NCBI RefSeq assembly: GCF_009467825.1
Contig: NZ_WIOK01000001.1
Coordinates: 124,001-188,000, forward strand
Direction: 5' to 3'
Length of the DNA stretch: 64,000 nucleotides
Source of the DNA: Cyclobacterium xiamenense
GTDB taxonomy: Bacteria; Bacteroidota; Bacteroidia; Cytophagales; Cyclobacteriaceae
Both the position numbers and the translations under genes were made by a program. How positions within the stretch are numbered: the stretch's first letter is position 1; each line of letters begins with the position of its first letter. Of the stretch, positions 51,941-63,678 are shown piece by piece. The notes beneath the pieces were generated by a model. That model was not told the DNA's origin and made no database searches. It saw only the letters and a list, made by a program, of their open reading frames with translations.

Positions 51941-52245
51941 GTTAGGATGGCTTTTGTTTTCAAAAGTAAAAGAAAGCGCGGGAATAGCACCCATGCGTCG
52001 GCGAATTAACGAAACTGAAAATCCGTAATCGAAGGCAGAATGCCAGACCGGGGCGATAAGGAAGGGGGTTTTCGACAAAAAAATTAACAATAATTTGCAT
52101 CAGAATAATATTTTGAAATTTTTTCCAATGTTAAAATTTAAAAAATAAAATTTCTCATTTAATATAATAATAAACTATAATTTCTAGTTTTATTTCAATT
52201 GCATAATTTTCTTGTTTTGTTCAAATTAAAAAAAGAAATAAAATA
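51941..52245. other. AT-rich intergenic region before the ilv-leu operon
   Basis: 305 bp, very AT-rich after about 52080. It must contain the ispE promoter on the minus strand; no gene or clear hairpin is seen. Confidence 0.5.
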
Positions 52246-52276
52246 TTGTAAGTATGGAATAAGGGTTTTAATATTG
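52246..52276 (+). promoter_or_regulatory. Candidate promoter of the ilv-leu operon
   Basis: TTG (52246-52248), 20 nt, then TAATATTG (52269-52276), one mismatch from TAnnTTTG. Transcription would begin near 52283, about 45 nt before the leader peptide start. Confidence 0.5.
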
Positions 52277-52328
52277 CATTATAAATACATGTCAAAAAGA
52301 AAACAAACCCATTTCGGGTGATAAAAAT

Positions 52329-52376
52329 ATGTTTCTACTAGTCAGCGTGGTCGTCCTTATCGTCATTATCATCTAG
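52329..52376 (+). CDS. Branched-chain amino-acid leader peptide
   Basis: A 15-residue ORF ending in TAG encodes MFLLVSVVVLIVIII: three Leu, five Val and four Ile codons out of fifteen. This is the composition of ilv attenuator leader peptides such as IlvL/IvbL of enterobacteria, though there is no need for sequence homology. An A-rich tract precedes the ATG, as usual for start sites in this phylum. Ribosome stalling at these codons when charged tRNAs are scarce would expose the downstream antiterminator. It is 113 bp upstream of ilvD and far too short to be a structural protein of the operon. Confidence 0.82.
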   Translation: MFLLVSVVVLIVIII

Positions 52377-52433
52377 TACAGGATGAAGCGCTGATCTATT
52401 TACACGATAGAAAAATTCAATAAAGTGCTTCAT
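52341..52433 (+). promoter_or_regulatory. Attenuator alternative helices (regions 1, 2, 3)
   Basis: Region 1, GTCAGCGT (52341-52348), lies inside the leader ORF and can pair with region 2, GCGCTGAT (52388-52395). Region 2, ATGAAGCGCT (52383-52392), can instead pair over 10 bases, one G-U, with region 3, AGTGCTTCAT (52424-52433). Region 3 is also the left arm of the terminator, so 2:3 and 3:4 exclude each other. Region 2 starts six bases after the leader stop codon, where a terminating ribosome would mask it. This is the geometry of leader-peptide attenuation. Confidence 0.75.
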
Positions 52434-52454
52434 TTGAGTGAAGCACTTTTTTTT
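52422..52454 (+). terminator. Attenuator terminator hairpin (3:4)
   Basis: Perfect 11-bp stem AAAGTGCTTCA (52422-52432) / TGAAGCACTTT (52439-52449), loop TTTGAG, with eight T at 52447-52454. It lies between the leader peptide and ilvD, so it would stop transcription of the whole operon unless the antiterminator forms. Confidence 0.88.
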
Positions 52455-52489
52455 ATAAGCCAGTCCTTAAAAAAAACCGATAGAAACTA

Positions 52490-54172
52490 ATGAGTAATTC
52501 GAAGAAACACAGTTGGGAGGTAAGTGATAATCAGGAAAATCCTGCTTCCATGGCCATGTTGTATGCCACAGGTCTTTCAGACGAGAAAATGAAGCAACCG
52601 TTTGTGGGAGTGGCTAGCTGTGGGTACGAAAGCAATCCCTGCAACATGCACCTCAACGACTTTGCCAGAGCCATCAAGGCCTCTACTGTGGAAGCGAATC
52701 TTACGGGAATGGTTTTCAATACCATCGGGATTAGTGACGGGATTTCGATGGGTACTGCGGGCATGCGCTATAGCTTACCCTCGCGGGAAATCATCGCGGA
52801 CTCCATCGAATCTTTCATTTTGGGGCATGCATTCGACGGAGTGATTGCCGTTGCCGGTTGCGACAAAAACATGCCCGGAGCGGTTATGGGGATGTTGCGG
52901 GTCAACCGCCCCAGCATCATGGTATATGGCGGGACGATCCGTTCCGGCAAATACAAGGGGGAGAAGCTGAACATTGTATCGGCCTTTGAGGCCTATGGAA
53001 AGCGTATCAAAAACGAAATTAATGACGAGGATTACATGGGCGTGATCAAAAACGCCTGTCCGGGTGCCGGTGCCTGCGGAGGGATGTATACCGCAAATAC
53101 CATGTCTTCGGCAATCGAGGCAATGGGTTTGTCTCTTCCTTACAGCGCTTCCAACCCGGCTACCTCTCCGGAAAAGGCGGCAGAATGTGAAGCTGCCGGA
53201 ACCTTTATTGCAAACCTACTGGCCATGGACCTCAAGCCGAAGGATATCCTTACAAGAAAAAGTATGGAAAATGCGGTAAGGGTGGTCGTTGCTTTGGCTG
53301 GGAGTACCAATGCGGTACTTCATTTATTGGCCATCGCCCGTACGGCTGGCATCGATTTTGGACTGGAGGATTTAAAACAAATCAATGCAACCACGCCGGT
53401 GCTGGGGGATTTCAAACCTAGTGGCAAGTACCTGATGGAAGACCTGCACGAACAGGGAGGGCTTCCGGCATTTATGAAATACATGCTAGACAACGGTATG
53501 CTCCATGGCGATTGCATGACGGTTACGGGAAAGACCGTTGCCGAAAACCTTGCCAATGTTACCCCAGTGAAAGCGGAACGCGGAAACGTCATACACCCGC
53601 TGGAGGATCCAATCAAAGCGACGGGGCATTTGTGTGTATTGAAAGGGAACCTGGCACCGGAAGGATCCGTTGCTAAAATCTCTGGAAAGGAAGGGATTTC
53701 GTTTACCGGCCCTGCGAAGGTATTTAATTCCGAGCAGGAGGCCAACGACGCTATGAAAAATCAGGAGATTCAGAAGGGGGACGTGGTAGTAATCCGGTAC
53801 GTAGGTCCCAAAGGAGGACCGGGTATGCCGGAGATGTTAAAACCCACCTCCATTATTATCGGTTCGGGTATGGGAGCGGATGTGGCTTTGATTACGGATG
53901 GCCGCTTTTCCGGAGGTACGCACGGTTTTGTCGTCGGCCACGTCACGCCTGAGGCCTATTTGGGTGGCCCCATCGGTCTGTTGCAAAATGGGGACGTGGT
54001 CACTATCAATGCCGAAACGCTGGAAATCAGCTGCAACGTCTCGGAAGAGACCTTTGCAGAGCGAAAGAAAACCTGGGTAAACAAAGACTTGAGCCATCTA
54101 AATGGTACCTTGAAAAAATATTCACAGTTAGTTTCCACTGCATCTGAAGGATGCGTGACAGATAAAAGTTAA
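52490..54172 (+). CDS. ilvD: Dihydroxy-acid dehydratase
   Basis: 560 residues. Iron-sulfur cysteines occur in [13 protein letters not shown] and [21 protein letters not shown]-terminal signatures include [17 protein letters not shown] and [18 protein letters not shown]. Converts dihydroxy-isovalerate and -methylvalerate to the 2-oxo acids. First structural gene of the operon, 36 bp after the attenuator U-tract. Confidence 0.98.
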
Positions 54173-54177
54173 CCACT

Positions 54178-55872
54178 ATGAATGATTCACAGATAAGAGG
54201 AGCTGAAATTGTCATCAAGTCCTTGGTGGCAGAGAATGCCAGATATATTTTTGGCTACCCCGGAGGCGCCATCATGCCTGTATACGATGCCCTCTACGAT
54301 TACATGGATCGCATACTGCACATTCTGACCCGACACGAACAGGGCGCAATTCATGCGGCCCAGGGCTATGCCCGGGTTTCTGGTCAGGTTGGTGTCTGCA
54401 TGGCTACCTCCGGACCGGGTGCGACCAATTTGATCACCGGCCTGGCCGATGCGCTGATCGACAGTACACCCCTGGTGTGCATCACCGGACAGGTGGCTTC
54501 GCATCTGTTGGGTACAGATGCCTTTCAGGAAACCGACGTGGTGGGGATTTCCATGCCGGGTACCAAGTGGAACATTCAGGTTAGACGGGTGGAAGATATC
54601 GCTCCGGCGATTGCCAAAGGTTTTCACATCGCCCGGTCGGGAAGGCCGGGACCGGTGTTGATAGACATTACCAAAGACGCCCAGACTAGCCTTGGGGATT
54701 TCAATTACGTGCCTTGTTTAAACATCCGCTCGTACCGACCCTATCCCAAAGTAGAGGATCATATCATTGAAAAGGCGGCGAGTCTGATCAATCAGGCCCG
54801 GAAGCCCTATGTTTTGTTTGGGCAGGGAGTCATTTTGGGTAAGGCTGAAAAAGCCTTGCAGGCATTCCTCGATAAATCCGGCATACCAGCGGCATGTACC
54901 CTTCTGGGTACTGGAGCCATTTCGGAGGAGCACCCAAATTTTGTGGGTAAATTAGGCATGCACGGGAATTACGGACCCAACCTACTTACGAATCAATGTG
55001 ATGTATTGATCGCAGTAGGGATGCGTTTTGACGACCGGGTTACCGGAGATGTAAAGCGCTATGCCAAGCAGGCAAAGGTAATTCACCTGGAATTGGATCC
55101 GGCGGAAGTCGACAAGACGGTGAAGAGCGAGGTAGCGGTTGTAGGCGACTGCAGGATTAGCCTGGAGAAGCTTACCGAAAAGGTGGAGAAGAAAACCCAC
55201 CCCGACTGGATCAAGGAGTTTAGGGAGTTGGAAGCCGAGGAAAAGCGTGTGGTCGTAGGGAACGATCTTTCGCCGACCAAGGTAGGGTTGACCATGGGAG
55301 AGGTAATTCGGCATATCAATGAATTCAAGGCGGATGATGCCATTCTGGTAACCGATGTAGGACAGCACCAAATGGTGGCCTGGAGGTATTTTGAATACAA
55401 GACCAGCCGTACCCAGGTCACATCCGGTGGACTTGGTACGATGGGATTTGCACTTCCTGCTGCTCTCGGAGCCCAACTCCACGATTACAACCGGCAGGTT
55501 ATTTGCGTGGTGGGCGATGGAGGTATTCAGATGACCTTTCAGGAACTGGGTACGATCATGCAAACCAAAGCACCGGTAAAAGTGGTATTGCTGAACAACA
55601 ATTTTCTGGGAATGGTACGGCAATGGCAGCAATTGTTTTTTGACAAACGCTATTCCTTTACCGAGTTGGACAACCCGGACTTTATTAAAATCGCGGAGGC
55701 GTACAACTTCAAAGTACAAAAAGTGGACGAGCGTGCCGATTTGAGGCAGGCCGTGGCAGAAATGTTTGTACACGACGGCCCCTATTTCCTGGAGGTAGTC
55801 GTAGAAAAAGAAGACAACGTTTTCCCGATGATTGCTTCGGGAAGCTCAGTAGAGGAAGTTAGACTTAGTTGA
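54178..55872 (+). CDS. ilvB: Acetolactate synthase large subunit
   Basis: 564 residues. YPGGAIMPVYDALYD and RHEQGAIHAAQGYARVSG (with the catalytic Glu) open the PYR domain; VGDGGIQMTFQELGTI...NNNFLGMVRQWQQLFFD is the thiamine diphosphate GDG-NN motif. Condenses pyruvate with pyruvate or 2-oxobutyrate, so it serves both valine/leucine and isoleucine. Five bases after ilvD. Confidence 0.98.
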   Translation: MNDSQIRGAEIVIKSLVAENARYIFGYPGGAIMPVYDALYDYMDRILHILTRHEQGAIHAAQGYARVSGQVGVCMATSGPGATNLITGLADALIDSTPLVCITGQVASHLLGTDAFQETDVVGISMPGTKWNIQVRRVEDIAPAIAKGFHIARSGRPGPVLIDITKDAQTSLGDFNYVPCLNIRSYRPYPKVEDHIIEKAASLINQARKPYVLFGQGVILGKAEKALQAFLDKSGIPAACTLLGTGAISEEHPNFVGKLGMHGNYGPNLLTNQCDVLIAVGMRFDDRVTGDVKRYAKQAKVIHLELDPAEVDKTVKSEVAVVGDCRISLEKLTEKVEKKTHPDWIKEFRELEAEEKRVVVGNDLSPTKVGLTMGEVIRHINEFKADDAILVTDVGQHQMVAWRYFEYKTSRTQVTSGGLGTMGFALPAALGAQLHDYNRQVICVVGDGGIQMTFQELGTIMQTKAPVKVVLLNNNFLGMVRQWQQLFFDKRYSFTELDNPDFIKIAEAYNFKVQKVDERADLRQAVAEMFVHDGPYFLEVVVEKEDNVFPMIASGSSVEEVRLS

Positions 55873-55877
55873 TTCAG

Positions 55878-56378
55878 ATGAATAAAAAATATACGATTTC
55901 TGTTTTTACAGAAAATTTTATTGGGATTCTTAGCCGGATCACCTTGATATTTACCCGTAGGGGGATCAATATTGATGGGTTTACGGCTTCAGAGAGCCGG
56001 GAAGAAGGGATCTATCGAATTACCATCGTGGTGACTACAAGTGAAGCACAAATCATCCAGCTCACCAAACAGATCGAAAAGATCATTGACGTGATCAAGG
56101 CATTTTACTACCTGGATGAGGAAATGGTTTTTCAGGAAATCGCCTTGTACAAAATCCCCATCGATAGCATCGATGCCGGCCTGGAAAAAGTGATCCGGCA
56201 GCACAATGCCCGAATAATTTCCGCCGAGAAGGATTTTGTGGTCATCGAAATGACGGGACACAAAGAGGAGACCCAGGAATTGCTGGAGGTTTTGAAAGAT
56301 TTTAATGTATTGGAATTTGTACGTTCCGGGAGAGTAGCCGTCGCGAAACCCATGGAAACAATTGACAAGTATTTGTAA
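55878..56378 (+). CDS. ilvN: Acetolactate synthase small regulatory subunit
   Basis: 166 residues from ATG 55878, five bases after the large subunit. N-terminal ACT domain YTISVFTENFIGILSRITLI, then GINIDGFTASESREEGIYRI, and a C-terminal domain with FVVIEMTGHKEETQELLEVL. Activates the large subunit and usually binds valine for feedback inhibition. Confidence 0.96.
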   Translation: MNKKYTISVFTENFIGILSRITLIFTRRGINIDGFTASESREEGIYRITIVVTTSEAQIIQLTKQIEKIIDVIKAFYYLDEEMVFQEIALYKIPIDSIDAGLEKVIRQHNARIISAEKDFVVIEMTGHKEETQELLEVLKDFNVLEFVRSGRVAVAKPMETIDKYL

Positions 56379-56408: not shown

Positions 56409-57452
56409 ATGAAACTGAAGTTCGGTACCGTTGAAGAAAATGTCGTAACAAGAGAAGAATTTCCTCTTGAAAAAGCCAAAGAAGTACTAAAAGACGAAGT
56501 AATAGCCGTGCTTGGATACGGTGTGCAGGGACCAGGCCAAGCCTTAAACCTCAAGGACAATGGTTTCAATGTGATTGTTGGCCAGCGAAAAGGTTCCAAA
56601 ACCTGGGACAAAGCCATAGCGGATGGCTGGGTGCCGGGAGAAACCTTGTTTGAGCTGGAGGAAGCCTGCGAAAAGGGTACCATTCTTCAGTTTTTGCTTT
56701 CGGATGCAGGTCAAATTGCCTTGTGGCCAACCGTAAAGAAACACCTGACTCCGGGCAAAGCGCTGTATTTCTCCCACGGTTTTGGGATCACCTATAAGGA
56801 CCAAACGGGAATTATCCCTCCAAAAGATGTGGACGTAATATTGGTGGCGCCTAAGGGCTCCGGAACTTCATTGCGAAGAATGTTTGTTGAAGGCAGGGGG
56901 TTGAACTCTTCCTTTGCCATTTACCAGGACGCAACCGGCAATGCCCGGGATCGTGTAGTGGCATTGGGTATTGGCGTAGGGTCCGGCTATTTGTTTGAGA
57001 CGGATTTTTACAAAGAAGTTACTTCCGACCTTACCGGAGAGCGGGGTACGCTAATGGGGGCCATTCAGGGAATCTTCGCTGCTCAATACGAGGTGTTGCG
57101 TGCCAACGGGCATTCTCCCTCCGAGGCATTTAACGAAACCGTAGAAGAGCTCACCCAAAGTCTGATGCCTCTGGTAGCAGAAAACGGCATGGATTGGATG
57201 TATGCCAATTGTTCGACCACAGCCCAGCGAGGTGCCCTGGATTGGTGGAAACCCTTTCGGGATGCCACCAAGCCTGTTTTTGAGGAACTTTACAACAGTG
57301 TAAAAACAGGTAAAGAGGCCGCCAAATCGATCGAATCCAATAGCAAGTCCGATTACCGCGTTAAGCTGGAAGAGGAGTTAAAAGAACTTAGAGAATCAGA
57401 AATGTGGCAGGCGGGTGCTACGGTACGTAAATTGCGCCCGGAAAATAATTAA
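56409..57452 (+). CDS. ilvC: Ketol-acid reductoisomerase
   Basis: 347 residues. VLGYGVQGPGQALNLKDNG is the nucleotide-binding loop; GQRKGSKTWD has the Arg and Ser expected for NADPH use; APKGSGTSLRRMF and SDLTGERGTLMG carry metal and substrate residues. Reduces and isomerises acetolactate and acetohydroxybutyrate. Confidence 0.97.
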   Translation: MKLKFGTVEENVVTREEFPLEKAKEVLKDEVIAVLGYGVQGPGQALNLKDNGFNVIVGQRKGSKTWDKAIADGWVPGETLFELEEACEKGTILQFLLSDAGQIALWPTVKKHLTPGKALYFSHGFGITYKDQTGIIPPKDVDVILVAPKGSGTSLRRMFVEGRGLNSSFAIYQDATGNARDRVVALGIGVGSGYLFETDFYKEVTSDLTGERGTLMGAIQGIFAAQYEVLRANGHSPSEAFNETVEELTQSLMPLVAENGMDWMYANCSTTAQRGALDWWKPFRDATKPVFEELYNSVKTGKEAAKSIESNSKSDYRVKLEEELKELRESEMWQAGATVRKLRPENN

Positions 57453-57460
57453 ATTGACCT

Positions 57461-58960
57461 ATGTCAGAAAAGCTTTGGATATTTGATACCACTCTACGAG
57501 ATGGGGAACAGGTGCCGGGATGTCAGCTCGATACCAGGGAAAAAATTGTAGTAGCCAAGGCTTTGGAGGCATTGGGTGTTGATATTCTTGAGGCTGGATT
57601 TCCAATATCCAGCCCCGGGGATTTCAATTCCGTTGTAGAAATATCCAAGGCGGTATCGGAACCCACCATTTGCGCCCTTTCCAGGGCGGTTGAAAAAGAC
57701 ATCGAGGTAGCCGCTGAGGCACTTCGGTATGCAAAAAAAAGCCGTATTCACACGGGTATCGGTGTGTCCGGGTACCATATCCAACACAAGCTCCGCAGTA
57801 CTCCGGAAGCCGTGTTGGAGAAAGCCGTTAAGGCAGTAAAATTTGCCCGGAACCTGGTGGAGGAAGTGGAGTTTTACGCAGAAGATGCGGGTAGGGCATC
57901 GCCGGAATTTCTGGTACGTGTGCTGGAAGCAGTGATCAAAGCCGGAGCGCGGGTAGTAAACATCCCGGATACGACGGGGTACTGCCTTCCCGAGCAGTAC
58001 GGCAACATCATTCGCCACCTGAAAGAAAATGTTTCCAACATCGATCAGGCCATCATTGCGACTCACTGCCACAACGACCTGGGTCTGGCTACCGCCAATA
58101 GTCTTTCCGGTGTCTTGAATGGTGCCCGGCAGGTGGAGGTAACCATGAACGGGATCGGAGAGCGCGCCGGAAATACCTCCCTGGAAGAGGTGGTGATGGC
58201 GATCAAAAGTCACCAGGAAATACCCGTCTACACGGATATCAACACGAAAAAAATCTACGAAACCAGCCGGATTATTTCCAAGCTGATGAACATGCCGATA
58301 CAGCCAAACAAGGCCATTGTCGGTAGAAATGCCTTTGCGCATTCCAGCGGGATACACCAGGATGGGGTACTCAAAAACCGGGAGAATTACGAAATCATCG
58401 ACCCCAAAGATGTGGGCGTGGAAGAGTCGTCGATTGTGCTGACGGCCCGGAGCGGTAGAGCCGCGCTGAAACATCACCTGAAATTGCTCGGTTACGAATT
58501 CGATAAGGAGAAGTTGGATGAGATCTACGAAGATTTTCTGGTCCTTGCCGATTCCAAACGAGACATCGGCAGAAAAGACCTGCTTTCTTTGTTGGGTGAG
58601 CACCTGGAGCATTCCCCTTTTATCGCGCTGGAAGAGATTTCCTACCAGGGAAAGGAGGGAGAAGAGGCACAAGCCGAGGTCATTCTGAATATCGGCGATG
58701 AGCTTAAGAAAGGCGCATCAAAAGGCAACGGCCCGGTGGACGCGGTCATCAAGTCCATCAAGCAATTGATCCCGCAGGAAGTGATTTTGGATGAATTCCT
58801 GATTCAGGCGATTACCAAGGGTAGCGATGATATTTGCAAAGTACACATGCGTCTGATGCACGAAGGCAAGCCCTACCACGGTTTTGGCTCTGAAACGGAC
58901 ATCGTATTGGCGTCTGCAAAGGCCTTTCTAGATGCATTAAACAAATTACCTGTCAAGTGA
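57461..58960 (+). CDS. leuA: 2-isopropylmalate synthase
   Basis: 499 residues. [20 protein letters not shown] opens the TIM barrel; [14 protein letters not shown] and [15 protein letters not shown] contribute substrate and zinc ligands; [20 protein letters not shown] is the second signature. A leucine-binding LeuA_dimer domain occupies about 390-499. Committed step of leucine synthesis. Eight bases after ilvC. Confidence 0.96.
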
Positions 58961-58982: not shown

Positions 58983-60404
58983 ATGGAGAAGAAAACATTA
59001 TTTGATAAGATTTGGGACGCACATGTGATCAAATCTATCCCAGATGGTCCGGACGTATTTTTCATCGATAAGCATTTTATCCATGAAGTCACCAGTCCGG
59101 TCGCATTTCTAAACCTCGAGAAACGAGGGGTTAAGGTCATGTTTCCGGAACGAACGGTGGCAACGCCGGACCACAACGTGCCCACCATCGATCAGGACAA
59201 GACCATCAAGGATCAGCTTTCCCGGATGCAGGTGGAAAAGCTCCGGCAAAATTGCAAGAAGCATGGAATAGAACTGCATGACCTGGGCTCCGATCATCAC
59301 GGTATTGTCCACGTAATTGGGCCCGAACTGGGCATCACCCAGCCAGGAATGACCATCGTTTGTGGCGATAGTCATACGTCAACCCATGGTGCCTTCGGCA
59401 CGATTGCTTTTGGTATCGGTACATCCGAGGTGGAAATGGTCCTGGCTACCCAGTGTATCATGCAGGCAAAGCCGAAGAAGATGCGCATCACCGTGGATGG
59501 AGAACTAGGCCCGGGTGTTTCCTCCAAGGACATTATTTTGTACATCATTGCCCAGATTTCCGCCAGTGGCGGTACCGGATATTTTATCGAATATGCGGGA
59601 AGTGCGATTCGCTCCCTAAGTATGGAAGCCCGCATGACGATTTGCAACATGAGCATCGAAATGGGAGCCCGGGGGGGATTGATTGCTCCCGACGAGACCA
59701 CCTTTGCGTACCTCAAAGGGAAAGACTTTGCACCCAAAGGGGAGGCCTGGGACCAGGCAGTAGCACATTGGAAAACCCTCCAAACCGATGATGGAGCAGA
59801 ATTTGATCTGGAGTACCAATACAATGCGGTGGATATCGAACCGATGATTACCTACGGGACCAACCCCGGTATGGGCGTAAAGGTGAGGGACAGCATTCCT
59901 ACCACCGACGGCATGAAGGAAAGCGTGAAGAAGTCTTACCTCAAGTCGCTTGAGTACATGGGATTTAAGCCTGGCGAGCCGATGAAGGGGAAAAAAATTG
60001 ACTACGTTTTTGTGGGTAGTTGTACGAATGGCCGGATTGAAGACCTTCGTACCGTTGCCAACTTTGTTAAAGGTAAAAAGAAGGCAGATGGAATCACGGC
60101 CTGGATTGTACCTGGTTCCAGGGAGGTCGAGAAGAAGGCCATCGAAGAGGGACTGGTGCAAATATTGGAGGAAGCAGGCTTTAAGCTCCGGCAGCCGGGC
60201 TGTTCCGCCTGTTTGGCGATGAACGACGACAAGATCCCTTCCGGCAAGTACGCGGTGTCTACCTCCAACCGTAATTTTGAAGGCAGGCAGGGACCGGGTA
60301 GCCGGACGCTATTGGCTTCCCCACTGACAGTGGCTGCAGTAGCGATTACTGGAGAAATTACCGACCCACGGGATTTGATTGAGGAATTAGCATTAGAAAA
60401 ATAA
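58983..60404 (+). CDS. leuC: 3-isopropylmalate dehydratase large subunit
   Basis: 473 residues. Iron-sulfur ligands are in [16 protein letters not shown] and [33 protein letters not shown] is the aconitase-family signature. With LeuD it isomerises 2- to 3-isopropylmalate; it may also act on citramalate. Confidence 0.98.
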
Positions 60405-61031: not shown

Positions 61032-62639
61032 ATGATTAACGGACTGGGTATGAGTAGAGAAATGAATATTGAAATCATGGACACCACCCTTCGGGATGGT
61101 GAGCAAACTTCTGGTGTGTCCTTCCTCCCTTCAGAAAAGTTGCAGATTGCCAAACTTTTACTGGAAGAGTTGCGGGTGGACCGCATCGAAGTGGCCTCTG
61201 CCCGGGTTTCGGAAGGGGAGTTGGAGGGAGTAAAAAAGATTACACATTGGGCTTCCGAAAAAGGGTATTTGGACAAAGTAGAGGTGTTGGGCTTTGTGGA
61301 CACACCCAAGTCCGTGGATTGGATGGTGGATGCCGGAGCCAAGGTGTTGAATCTGCTCACAAAAGGCTCACTCAACCACCTCACCCATCAATTGAAGAAG
61401 ACCCCGGAAGTTCATTTCGAGGAGATTGCCGATTGTATTCAGTACGCGGAAGAAAAGGGGATCGAAGTAAACGTGTACCTGGAAGATTGGAGCAATGGTA
61501 TGCGGAACTCCCGGGAATACGCGATGTCCATGATCCGGTTTCTTTCCGAATTACCAGTAAGGCGCATCATGCTGCCGGACACCCTGGGGCTGTTGTGTCC
61601 CGAAGAGGTAAAGGAGTTTTTGGGATTGATTTGTACCGAGTTTCCAGACATGCACTTTGACTTTCATGCGCACAACGACTACGATTTGTCCGTGGCCAAT
61701 GTGCTAACTGCAGTGAATTCAGGGGCCAAAGGCATTCATACTACTGTGAACGGACTGGGGGAACGCGCCGGAAATGCACCTCTGGAGTCGATCGTAGCCG
61801 TTATTCAGGATTTTACCAATTTCGGTTTAAACATACAGGAAACCAAAATATACCGTATTAGTAAATTGATCGAACAATTTTCCGGCTTACGAATTCCAGC
61901 AAATAAGCCGGTGGTAGGTGAGAATGTGTTTACCCAAACGGCAGGCGTTCATGCGGATGGAGACCACAAAAAGAACCTGTATTTCAGTGATTTGCTACCC
62001 GAGCGGTTTGGCAGAACGAGGAAGTATGCACTAGGAAAGACCTCGGGCAAGGCCAATATCTTAAAAAACCTGGTGGAGTTGGGAATCTCGCTGGAGCCGG
62101 ATGAATTGGCCAAGGTGACCCAAAAGATCATCGAACTGGGTGACAAAAAAGAGCGGGTGACTACGGAGGATTTGCCGTACATCATATCAGATGTGTTGCA
62201 AAACAACTCCATACACCGGGACATTGTCATCGACGGGTACCACATGGTTCATTCCAAGGGCCTGAAACCTTCGGTTCAGTTGCGGGTAAAAATATTCCAC
62301 GAGTTTTACGAGCAGAATGCTTCCGGGGACGGGCAATACGATTCCTTTATGAAGGCCCTGAAGAAGATTTACAAATCTTTAAACAAAGAACTCCCCAAGC
62401 TGACGGATTTCCAAATCAGTATTCCTCCCGGAGGAAAGACGGATGCCTTTGTCGAATGCGTGATTACCTGGGACCTTGATGGACGAATCTTTAAGACGAA
62501 AGGTCTGGATAGCGACCAAACGATCGCCGCGATGAAAGCCACCGAGAAAATGCTAAACATCATCGAACAAATAAAAAACAGTAACAAAACAGAAAAAAAG
62601 AATCCCTATGGAAATGAATATAGCCCTATTGCCTGGTGA
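61032..62639 (+). CDS. Citramalate synthase-like / alpha-isopropylmalate synthase paralogue
   Basis: 535 residues (starts at 61050 or 61062 also possible). It is a second HMGL-like TIM barrel: [37 protein letters not shown] and NGLGERAGNAPLESIVAVI keep all catalytic residues and metal ligands, and a LeuA_dimer regulatory domain covers about 390-510. Where LeuA has YAEDAGRAS this protein has YLEDWSNGMRNS, so the substrate pocket differs. Between leuD and leuB it most likely makes citramalate from pyruvate and acetyl-CoA, feeding isoleucine synthesis via LeuCDB. A simple second isopropylmalate synthase is the alternative. Confidence 0.8.
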   Translation: MINGLGMSREMNIEIMDTTLRDGEQTSGVSFLPSEKLQIAKLLLEELRVDRIEVASARVSEGELEGVKKITHWASEKGYLDKVEVLGFVDTPKSVDWMVDAGAKVLNLLTKGSLNHLTHQLKKTPEVHFEEIADCIQYAEEKGIEVNVYLEDWSNGMRNSREYAMSMIRFLSELPVRRIMLPDTLGLLCPEEVKEFLGLICTEFPDMHFDFHAHNDYDLSVANVLTAVNSGAKGIHTTVNGLGERAGNAPLESIVAVIQDFTNFGLNIQETKIYRISKLIEQFSGLRIPANKPVVGENVFTQTAGVHADGDHKKNLYFSDLLPERFGRTRKYALGKTSGKANILKNLVELGISLEPDELAKVTQKIIELGDKKERVTTEDLPYIISDVLQNNSIHRDIVIDGYHMVHSKGLKPSVQLRVKIFHEFYEQNASGDGQYDSFMKALKKIYKSLNKELPKLTDFQISIPPGGKTDAFVECVITWDLDGRIFKTKGLDSDQTIAAMKATEKMLNIIEQIKNSNKTEKKNPYGNEYSPIAW

Positions 62640-63678
62640 CGGTATTGGACCGGAAGTAATCGCACAGGCGGTAAAAGTAGTACAGGCAATCGGGAAAAAA
62701 TTTGGACATACCATCACTTTTAAAGAGGCAATTACTGGAGCTGCGGCCATTGATGCCGTCGGCCATCCGTATCCGGAAGAGACGCATCAGGTCTGTCTGC
62801 AGGCAGATGCAGTACTCTTTGGAGCCATAGGTGATCCTCGGTTTGACAATGACCCCAGTGCGAAGGTTCGTCCGGAGCAGGGCTTGTTGGAGATGAGAAA
62901 ACGACTGGGATTGTTTTCGAACGTACGCCCCACGTTTACTTTTCCGTCCCTGGTTCATAAATCGCCCCTCAAGCGTGACCGCATTGAGGGAACGGATTTG
63001 GTTTTTCTTCGGGAGCTTACCGGAGGTATCTATTTTGGAGAGCCAAGAGGTCGAAACGAGCAGGGGACCAAGGCATTTGATACTTGCGTGTATTCGGTAG
63101 AAGAGATCGAGCGACTTGCCCGAATGGGATTTGAATTTGCCCAAAAGCGTAGAAAACATCTCACCTGTGTGGATAAGGCCAATGTGTTGGCTACTTCCAG
63201 GTTGTGGAGGGAAACGGTCCAGCGATTGGCTCCCGAATATCCGGATGTGACCGTGGAATACGAATTTGTAGATGCCGTGGCCATGCGGCTGATTCAATGG
63301 CCCAAGGCCTATGATGTGCTGATTACGGAAAATCTTTTTGGAGATATTCTGACAGATGAAGCTTCGGTAATTAGTGGGTCCATGGGGCTGATGCCGTCGG
63401 CCTCCCTGGGAGTCAATACGAAGTTATTTGAGCCGATCCACGGCTCCTATCCCCAGGCAGCAGGCAAAGACATCGCCAATCCCCTGGCAACCGTACTTTC
63501 GGCGGCCATGATGTTTGAGTATGCGTTTGAACTAATGGATGAAGCAAAAGCCATATCCGATGCGGTGAACCTTTCTCTGGAAAAGGGAATAGTTACGGAA
63601 GACCTGGCCGAGGGTGAGGTTGCTTACAAGACCTCGGAGGTAGGGGACTGGCTGGCCGAACAAATCGAAAAATCATAA
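62608..63678 (+). CDS. leuB: 3-isopropylmalate dehydrogenase
   Basis: 356 residues. LLPGDGIGPEVIAQAVKVV opens the fold; RLGLFSNVRPTFTFPSL, LTGGIYFGEPRG, VDKANVLATSRLWRE and NLFGDILTDEASVISGSMGL are the substrate and metal segments. Oxidises 3-isopropylmalate, and probably 3-methylmalate from the citramalate route. Its start overlaps the upstream gene's end by 32 bp (26 bp if the second Met is used), so translation is coupled. Confidence 0.97.
   Translation: MEMNIALLPGDGIGPEVIAQAVKVVQAIGKKFGHTITFKEAITGAAAIDAVGHPYPEETHQVCLQADAVLFGAIGDPRFDNDPSAKVRPEQGLLEMRKRLGLFSNVRPTFTFPSLVHKSPLKRDRIEGTDLVFLRELTGGIYFGEPRGRNEQGTKAFDTCVYSVEEIERLARMGFEFAQKRRKHLTCVDKANVLATSRLWRETVQRLAPEYPDVTVEYEFVDAVAMRLIQWPKAYDVLITENLFGDILTDEASVISGSMGLMPSASLGVNTKLFEPIHGSYPQAAGKDIANPLATVLSAAMMFEYAFELMDEAKAISDAVNLSLEKGIVTEDLAEGEVAYKTSEVGDWLAEQIEKS

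Follow-up and report, generated by a model that had tools for sequence, protein, structure and literature searches.

The 64,000-nucleotide stretch of Cyclobacterium xiamenense DNA analysed here (the window, from a genome of 5.78 Mb) contains, directly upstream of a nine-gene ilv-leu operon, an element that is in all likelihood a ribosome-mediated transcription attenuator. A short open reading frame (ORF) rich in Leu, Val and Ile codons is followed by a conserved RNA switch, and the two most likely shut the operon off when these amino acids are plentiful. The first-pass annotation had already read this region as a leader-peptide transcription attenuator, and the ORF, the helices, their conservation and covariation, and the position before the operon all support this reading. 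Sequence comparison shows the element to be real and conserved, and it very probably functions as a leader-peptide attenuator. The earlier reading is upheld apart from a conserved role for helix 1:2, and sensing of all three amino acids stays putative.

Leader ORF, promoter and operon

The putative sensor is the leader ORF at 52329..52376 (all features described here lie on the forward strand), which encodes MFLLVSVVVLIVIII and is kept in relatives. Its codons are ATG TTT CTA CTA GTC AGC GTG GTC GTC CTT ATC GTC ATT ATC ATC TAG, and 12 of the 15 sense codons specify Leu (three), Val (five) or Ile (four). Re-reading of the sequence reproduced the annotated 15-codon ORF, with its 12 Leu/Val/Ile codons, exactly to the base; the spacing claimed for it was likewise reproduced, region 2 of the RNA starting six bases past the leader stop codon. 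From these codons it can be inferred that one leader may sense all three branched-chain aminoacyl-tRNAs.

The promoter-like elements noted earlier upstream of the ORF are present: a -33-like TTG (52246..52248) and a -7-like TAATATTG (52269..52276), separated by a gap of 20 nt. In the alignment of 26 sequences, the key bases are invariant throughout (TTG in the first box; the first T, the A and the final TTG, i.e. TA...TTG, in the second). Bacteroidota promoters have the form TTG / TAnnTTTG, and we take the two boxes to be such a promoter, which would place the transcription start near 52281-52284 (approximately 52283). Of 171 pooled leader units, 45 have the pattern TTG-N17-22-TAnn[AT]TTG no more than 130 nt away, compared with 5 of 171 reversed controls; the pool skips the second units of tandems and contains a few duplicates and a few ORFs away from the operon.

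The operon has the order ilvD-ilvB-ilvN-ilvC-leuA-leuC-leuD-cimA-like-leuB, and the nine genes of the first-pass annotation, including the citramalate synthase-like gene, were all recovered. Eight exceed the cut-off of an NCBIfam model: ilvD for dihydroxy-acid dehydratase (52490..54172; TIGR00110, 718 bits), ilvB for the large subunit of acetolactate synthase (54178..55872; TIGR00118, 708 bits), ilvN/ilvH for its small subunit (55881..56378, with an ATG start chosen; TIGR00119 and NF008864), ilvC for ketol-acid reductoisomerase (56409..57452; TIGR00465, 313 bits), leuA for 2-isopropylmalate synthase (57461..58960; TIGR00973, 662 bits), leuC and leuD for the large and small subunits of 3-isopropylmalate dehydratase (58983..60404, TIGR00170; 60408..60998, TIGR00171), and leuB for 3-isopropylmalate dehydrogenase (62614..63678; TIGR00169, 459 bits). 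The citramalate synthase-like gene (61032..62639) has NF042433 as its best match, with 691 bits against a cut-off of 950.

Mutually exclusive RNA helices

The leader RNA contains four pairing regions. Region 1 (52341..52348) lies inside codons 5-7 and pairs with 52388-52395. Region 2 (52381..52395) pairs through 52381-52392 with region 3 to form the antiterminator and through 52388-52395 with region 1. Region 3 (52422..52435) is common to antiterminator and terminator, and region 4 (52438..52449) is the 3' arm of the terminator. Helix 1:2 (GUCAGCGU, 52341-52348, with GCGCUGAU, 52388-52395) has eight pairs, the two outermost being G.U. Helix 2:3 (AUGAAGCGCU, 52383-52392, with AGUGCUUCAU, 52424-52433) has ten pairs including one G.U and extends to 12 pairs between 52381-52392 and 52424-52435. 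Helix 3:4 (AAAGUGCUUCAU, 52422-52433, with GUGAAGCACUUU, 52438-52449) consists of 11 Watson-Crick pairs and one U.G pair closed by a UUGA loop. Antiterminator and terminator are mutually exclusive through their common region 3. The 171 nt from 52290 to 52460 fold with a z-score of -3.91, equalled by none of 200 dinucleotide shuffles, and the 2:3 match of the window is equalled by none of 300.

The three helices proposed earlier fared differently when the 26 leaders were aligned. Helix 2:3 is confirmed both in the sequence (52383-52392 with 52424-52433) and in the alignment, where 87.4% of cells are paired compared with 34.6-47.1% in slid versions. For the 3:4 terminator, the corresponding values are 93.2% and 31.9-59.2%; its 11-bp stem and its run of eight T (52447..52454) stand, but the first three T lie within the stem and only five are unpaired. 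Helix 1:2 is present in the window with its eight pairs, but it is not kept column by column in relatives: 59.4% of cells are paired across the 26 sequences, a value reached by 340 of 500 shuffles, and consensus folding for 1:2 gave no common structure for all 26 sequences or the last 19, and one for the first seven. When folded singly, many relatives do form a leader hairpin in which part of the ORF pairs with sequence at or near region 2, with a mean z of -2.3 (range +0.12 to -5.02) and with alternative partners such as GTTCAGC with GCTGAAC in L084-L087 and TAGTC with GACTA in many others.

Compensatory changes in both 2:3 and 3:4, predicted for relatives by the first-pass annotation, were found in the form of one triple change. 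Region 3 has a U facing A in both regions 2 and 4 in six sequences and a C facing G in both in the other twenty, the covarying pair columns being 192-242 (2:3) and 242-255 (3:4). The triple change is one evolutionary event inherited by six sequences and not six events. In the clade of the window (L082-L087), region 3 reads AGTGCTTCA, region 2 TGAAGCGCT (TGGAGCGCT in L084) and region 4 TGAAGCACT. A further observation is that 20 of the 26 sequences have a G.U pair in 2:3 where 3:4 has A-U, which would leave the antiterminator a little less stable than the terminator.

In equilibrium folding, at least six pairs of 2:3 form in 25 of the 26 RNAs when region 1 is masked and region 4 is missing. With region 1 free and region 4 absent, 2:3 still forms in 21 of 26, the window included; a block of 2:3 by helix 1:2 is thus not seen in these calculations, 1:2 losing in those 21. 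Since 2:3 forms in the models even when region 1 is free, a role of region 1 as protector stays hypothetical. The best-supported part of the switch is whether region 2 is free or covered by the ribosome. In 26/26 sequences, 3:4 is favoured in the full-length RNA, and it also forms in 26/26 with a ribosome at the stop codon. Because the complete RNA favours the terminator throughout, readthrough must be kinetic.

Conservation in close relatives

Among 98 genomes of the family, ilvD was found in 88 (89 matches), 30 of which were taken first as loci. Close relatives were defined as the 26 loci, including the window, with an ilvD at least 73% identical; the other four (L108-L111) are more distant, and one of them has a leader. 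By ilvD, the nearest named relatives are Aquiflexum and Algoriphagus with 75-77% identity, although very near records may be absent; this fits a place for the window in the Cyclobacteriaceae. The short Leu/Val/Ile-rich ORF expected upstream of ilvD in relatives is present in 26 of 26, as an ATG-started ORF of 15-23 codons that begins 134-161 nt ahead of ilvD and is followed by a terminator. The sibling species has the leader MFILVSLVVLIVIII, and other relatives have MFSIVSIISLVVILIQKR or MFELVTPLSFIILICNK.

The composition of these ORFs is well above that of shuffled sequence. In all 26, the best ten residues contain between five and nine Leu, Val or Ile, L106 being the weakest with five and a large group having six. 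Under the same rule, an ATG-started ORF with at least five of ten such residues occurs in 709 of 5200 dinucleotide-shuffled leaders, and the observed richness is reached in 170 of 5200 shuffled-leader trials. The ATG occupies the same alignment columns and opens a frame of at least 15 codons in 24 of the 26, L096 and L106 being the exceptions. Within 15 codons, stops are found in 0/26 leaders in the true frame and in 19/26 in each shifted frame, and the share of Leu, Val and Ile in frames 0, 1 and 2 is 56%, 28% and 16% over the 26 leaders, a contrast to which the choice of an ORF in itself contributes. Codon differences among the leaders (454 synonymous, 1012 among Leu, Val and Ile codons and 1796 other) indicate that the peptide is kept in kind and not letter by letter. 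The first-pass annotation had named a loss of ORF composition or of antiterminator pairing in relatives as evidence against an attenuator; the relatives keep both, the ORF in 26/26 and the 2:3 pairs in 87.4% of cells.

A covariance model was built from 24 of the 26 leaders, leaving out L096 and L106, and was run over the 98 family genomes. The genome of the window has one match at E <= 0.01, at this leader, and the two relatives left out were recovered before their ilvD genes with E values of 4.6e-7 and 4.2e-6. At E < 1e-5, there are 26 full-length matches in the 98 genomes, one in each close relative only and all just before ilvD. At E <= 0.01, the search returned 36 matches in 31 genomes. 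The ten weaker matches include one in G060 on a leader that was also found independently (L172) and one in G059 approximately 0.9 kb before ilvD, and several of them span just the terminator end of the model.

Proposed mechanism and alternative explanations

Promoter use, leader translation, coupling and termination are all inferred in the following scheme. While regions 2, 3 and 4 are being transcribed, a ribosome would begin to translate the 15-codon leader. A shortage of Leu-, Val- or Ile-tRNA would stall it within codons 3-15; region 2, left free, would then pair with region 3 ahead of the synthesis of region 4, and the polymerase would continue into ilvD...leuB. With enough charged tRNA, the ribosome would instead reach the stop codon and cover region 2, so that 3:4 could form and transcription would terminate at approximately 52454.

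The short ORF could instead be incidental and the hairpin a simple terminator, or a terminator under the control of a protein or of a ligand-binding RNA. In favour of this, few parts of the leader are as conserved in the 26-sequence alignment as the terminator arms, and folding alone assigns no strong role to region 1. Against it stand a Leu/Val/Ile-rich leader in 26/26 close relatives, leaders of like composition ahead of ilvE or ilvD in numerous genera, and the conserved second partner of region 3 with its compensating change. A ligand-binding RNA also finds no counterpart in Rfam release 15: in 52090-52600, the leader, T-box and all other families yielded four matches with E values of up to 5; each falls well short of its gathering score, and none is to a leader or T-box family. 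The best of these, GibS, was rejected, its 25.8 bits (cut-off 115) deriving for the most part from the terminator. Overall, we regard this explanation as very improbable.

Attenuation at the level of translation, or reinitiation at ilvD by ribosomes that have read the leader, is less probable still. This explanation gains some appeal from the lack of Shine-Dalgarno sequences in members of the phylum (PMC6847099), in which exposure of the start site could be the regulated step. The leader stop codon is 113 nt from the ilvD start, with the intrinsic terminator in between, and in other loci the distance from terminator to next gene varies from approximately 10 to 300 nt, a variability that does not allow masking of the start site. 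Ribosome-mediated transcription attenuation is the reading retained in what follows.

Branched-chain leaders in other Bacteroidota

The survey was extended with a strict detector that asks for a perfect stem of at least seven pairs (six in the scan of 60 Flavobacteriaceae regions behind the antisense count of 1/60 and one of the tandem counts), at least six T among eight, and at least seven Leu, Val or Ile among ten residues. It misses both E. coli controls, ilvL (owing to a mismatch in the terminator stem) and leuL, so that its counts are lower bounds and the lack of a match does not mean that a leader is absent. Rows were picked by list order and spread, before the upstream sequence was known. 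To the family sample, 40 of the 59 remaining ilvD matches were added; the phylum sample (184 of 257 genomes matched) provided 28 loci and 60 more rows spread over families, and in the Flavobacteriaceae sample (120 of 149 genomes matched) 60 + 28 loci were scanned. Some loci occur in both the named and the unnamed sets: 6 of 268 are exact duplicates.

Strict leaders were detected in 34 of 40 further regions of the window's family, 16 of 60 regions from other families, orders and classes of Bacteroidota, 31 of 60 Flavobacteriaceae genera, 19 of 28 loci of the phylum sample, and 6 of 28 Flavobacteriaceae loci that hold just 1.5 kb of upstream sequence. Many sampled regions are without a leader by this detector. 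On the antisense strand, an ILV-rich ORF with a terminator was found in 0/100, 1/60 and 0/28 regions; in the set of 100 further Bacteroidota regions, an ORF of this type adjoins a terminator in 50 regions in sense and in none in antisense orientation. ILV-rich ORFs beside terminators elsewhere were considered as a background set, which was dropped in favour of the antisense strand because many of them looked like real leaders of operons that open with another gene. With a looser rule (at least six of ten Leu, Val or Ile, no more than 700 nt from ilvD), leaders are found in 29 of 80 named loci. In units from beyond the close relatives, a 2:3 match better than that of shuffles (p<0.05) is seen in 29 of 35, 10 of 21 and 14 of 32 cases, and on this measure it is clear within the family and weak elsewhere.

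Examples of these leaders are MQISIIIISVVVVNVIHTSASGML in Flavobacterium (L038) and MFKGINHNVSIINTIIIVVVIIVPALNGGGALI in Sediminibacterium (L048). Where the operon opens with ilvE (L010, L018, L047, L055, L060, L062, L070, L079 and others), leader and terminator precede ilvE and not ilvD, and all five operon-opening ilvE genes tested exceed the TIGR01122 cut-off. Several Chitinophagaceae leaders terminate in IIP..GGG. A distinct group of leaders before ilvD, for example MLSIIISLVIIQVIGIPYQPGKVL, occurs in the GTDB family f23, which belongs to another class of the same phylum (L114-L118, L120, L121, L123-L126, L130, L131, L134). In L055, L081, L207 and L331, just 4 nt separate the leader ATG from the end of a promoter-like TAnn[AT]TTG box, which hints that the leader peptide may be made there from a leaderless transcript.

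Tandem leaders

In 13 of 296 loci, two leader ORFs, each with its own terminator, stand in series before the branched-chain operon (10 of 208 loci, consisting of 80 named and 28 + 100 unnamed ones, 1 of 60 and 2 of 28). They include L055 (8614-8880) and L081, both from Chryseobacterium, L031 (Lutibacter), L064 (Aquimarina) and L152 from the window's own family, as well as L008, L191, L192, L207, L221, L254, L270 and L314. The two units are 7-34 nt apart, a gap so short that any promoter of the second unit would have to overlap the terminator of the first, and one transcript therefore probably carries both. Among the 20 units of ten tandem loci, 14 have a 2:3 match equalled by no more than 14 of 300 shuffles, and the remaining six one equalled by 16 to 107 of 300.

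A division of labour between tandem leaders, with one sensing Ile/Val and the other Leu, was considered and is weakened by the codon counts. With the Chryseobacterium-like loci L055, L081 and L207 counted once, there are 11 lineages to compare. From first to second leader, Leu codons rise in just five of them (L008, L031, Chryseobacterium, L064, L314), are equal in L152, L191, L192, L221 and L254, and fall in L270, which amounts to no firm pattern.

Possible attenuators of other amino acid operons in the same genome

Leader-like elements also precede other amino acid operons of this genome. Ahead of the trpE domain match (L241, contig C29 of G000), at a distance of approximately 190 to 70 nt, lies the leader MKQTNQIWWWLSYFF followed by a strong GC-rich hairpin and seven T; leader and hairpin together likely constitute a tryptophan attenuator. 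Upstream of the hisG match (L240, contig C9 of G000), a His-rich short ORF, MKISGSNCHTYSFFHAATACWHHAGHHSA, is located at 189 to 99 nt, and no clear terminator adjoins it. Bacteroid-trp is a trp attenuator; this motif (RF01692) has no match in the genome of the window, although a WWW leader and terminator precede its trpE, and a control search matched 1 of 14 genomes, that of Bacteroides ihuae. RF01692 is listed as a cis-regulatory RNA of Bacteroidetes in a table of PMC2864571.

Relation to known systems and significance

The best parallel in kind is provided by E. coli. Its ilvXGMEDA operon is preceded by the Leu/Val/Ile-rich leader MTALLRVISLVVISVVVIIIPPCGAALGRGKA (ilvL, b3766), a hairpin and a T run, and ilvL works by textbook attenuation. 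The leader of the window is shorter, with 15 codons compared with 32 in ilvL, the hairpins of the two being compared by reading alone, and its operon adds leuACDB and the cimA-like gene. The E. coli leuABCD operon is alike in having a leader ORF with a Leu run (leuL, b0075) and a terminator hairpin before the leu genes, but leuL has one run of four Leu, whereas the window leader mixes Leu, Val and Ile. Homology of Bacteroidota leaders to ilvL through shared IIP..GG ends was considered and dropped, because short hydrophobic peptides compared by eye alone cannot show it. The setting differs from that of E. coli ilvL as well, the phylum of the window being one without Shine-Dalgarno sequences (PMC6847099).

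Amino acid attenuators have been considered in this phylum before, and the mechanism proposed here is the textbook one. Vitreschak et al. (2004, FEMS Microbiol Lett 234:357) reportedly predicted attenuators of amino acid operons that included candidates from Bacteroidetes/Chlorobi. In 2010, Naville and Gautheret stated that they knew of no demonstrated case beyond Proteobacteria and Actinobacteria (PMC2965389). Work on a map of Bacteroides thetaiotaomicron mentions short ORFs within long 5' UTRs that resemble such leaders (PMC7366714), and tandem attenuators are known from the Salmonella mgtCBR operon (PMC3641672). For Flavobacterium psychrophilum, of the same phylum, a transcriptome published in 2021 is reported to give strong clues for leader-peptide attenuation ahead of amino acid operons (PMC9723704); the likeness to the leader of the window lies in this general description, which in the passages concerned names no operon or leader sequence. 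In outline, leader-peptide attenuation is already in print for this phylum. Among the matches listed in text searches that left most subscription papers outside, neither this leader nor a tandem arrangement of branched-chain leader peptides was the subject of any paper.

More tentatively, and with somewhat more doubt than confidence, the leader of the window may belong to a large unnamed set of branched-chain attenuators across many genera of Bacteroidota, which would be indirect evidence that a ribosome initiating without a Shine-Dalgarno sequence is able to stay close to RNA polymerase. Where the set has grown to two complete attenuators in series, as in several lineages, these might constitute a two-stage gate at which both sensors must report a shortage before the operon is expressed. 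The phylum is not the usual example of the textbook mechanism, and classical attenuation requires a ribosome close behind RNA polymerase. A conserved attenuator in a phylum without Shine-Dalgarno sequences would thus make transcription-translation coupling testable with an endogenous reporter. The leaders also suggest a simple annotation rule for small ORFs before ilvD and ilvE, and the tandem leaders would offer a natural two-stage version for testing the logic of the signal.
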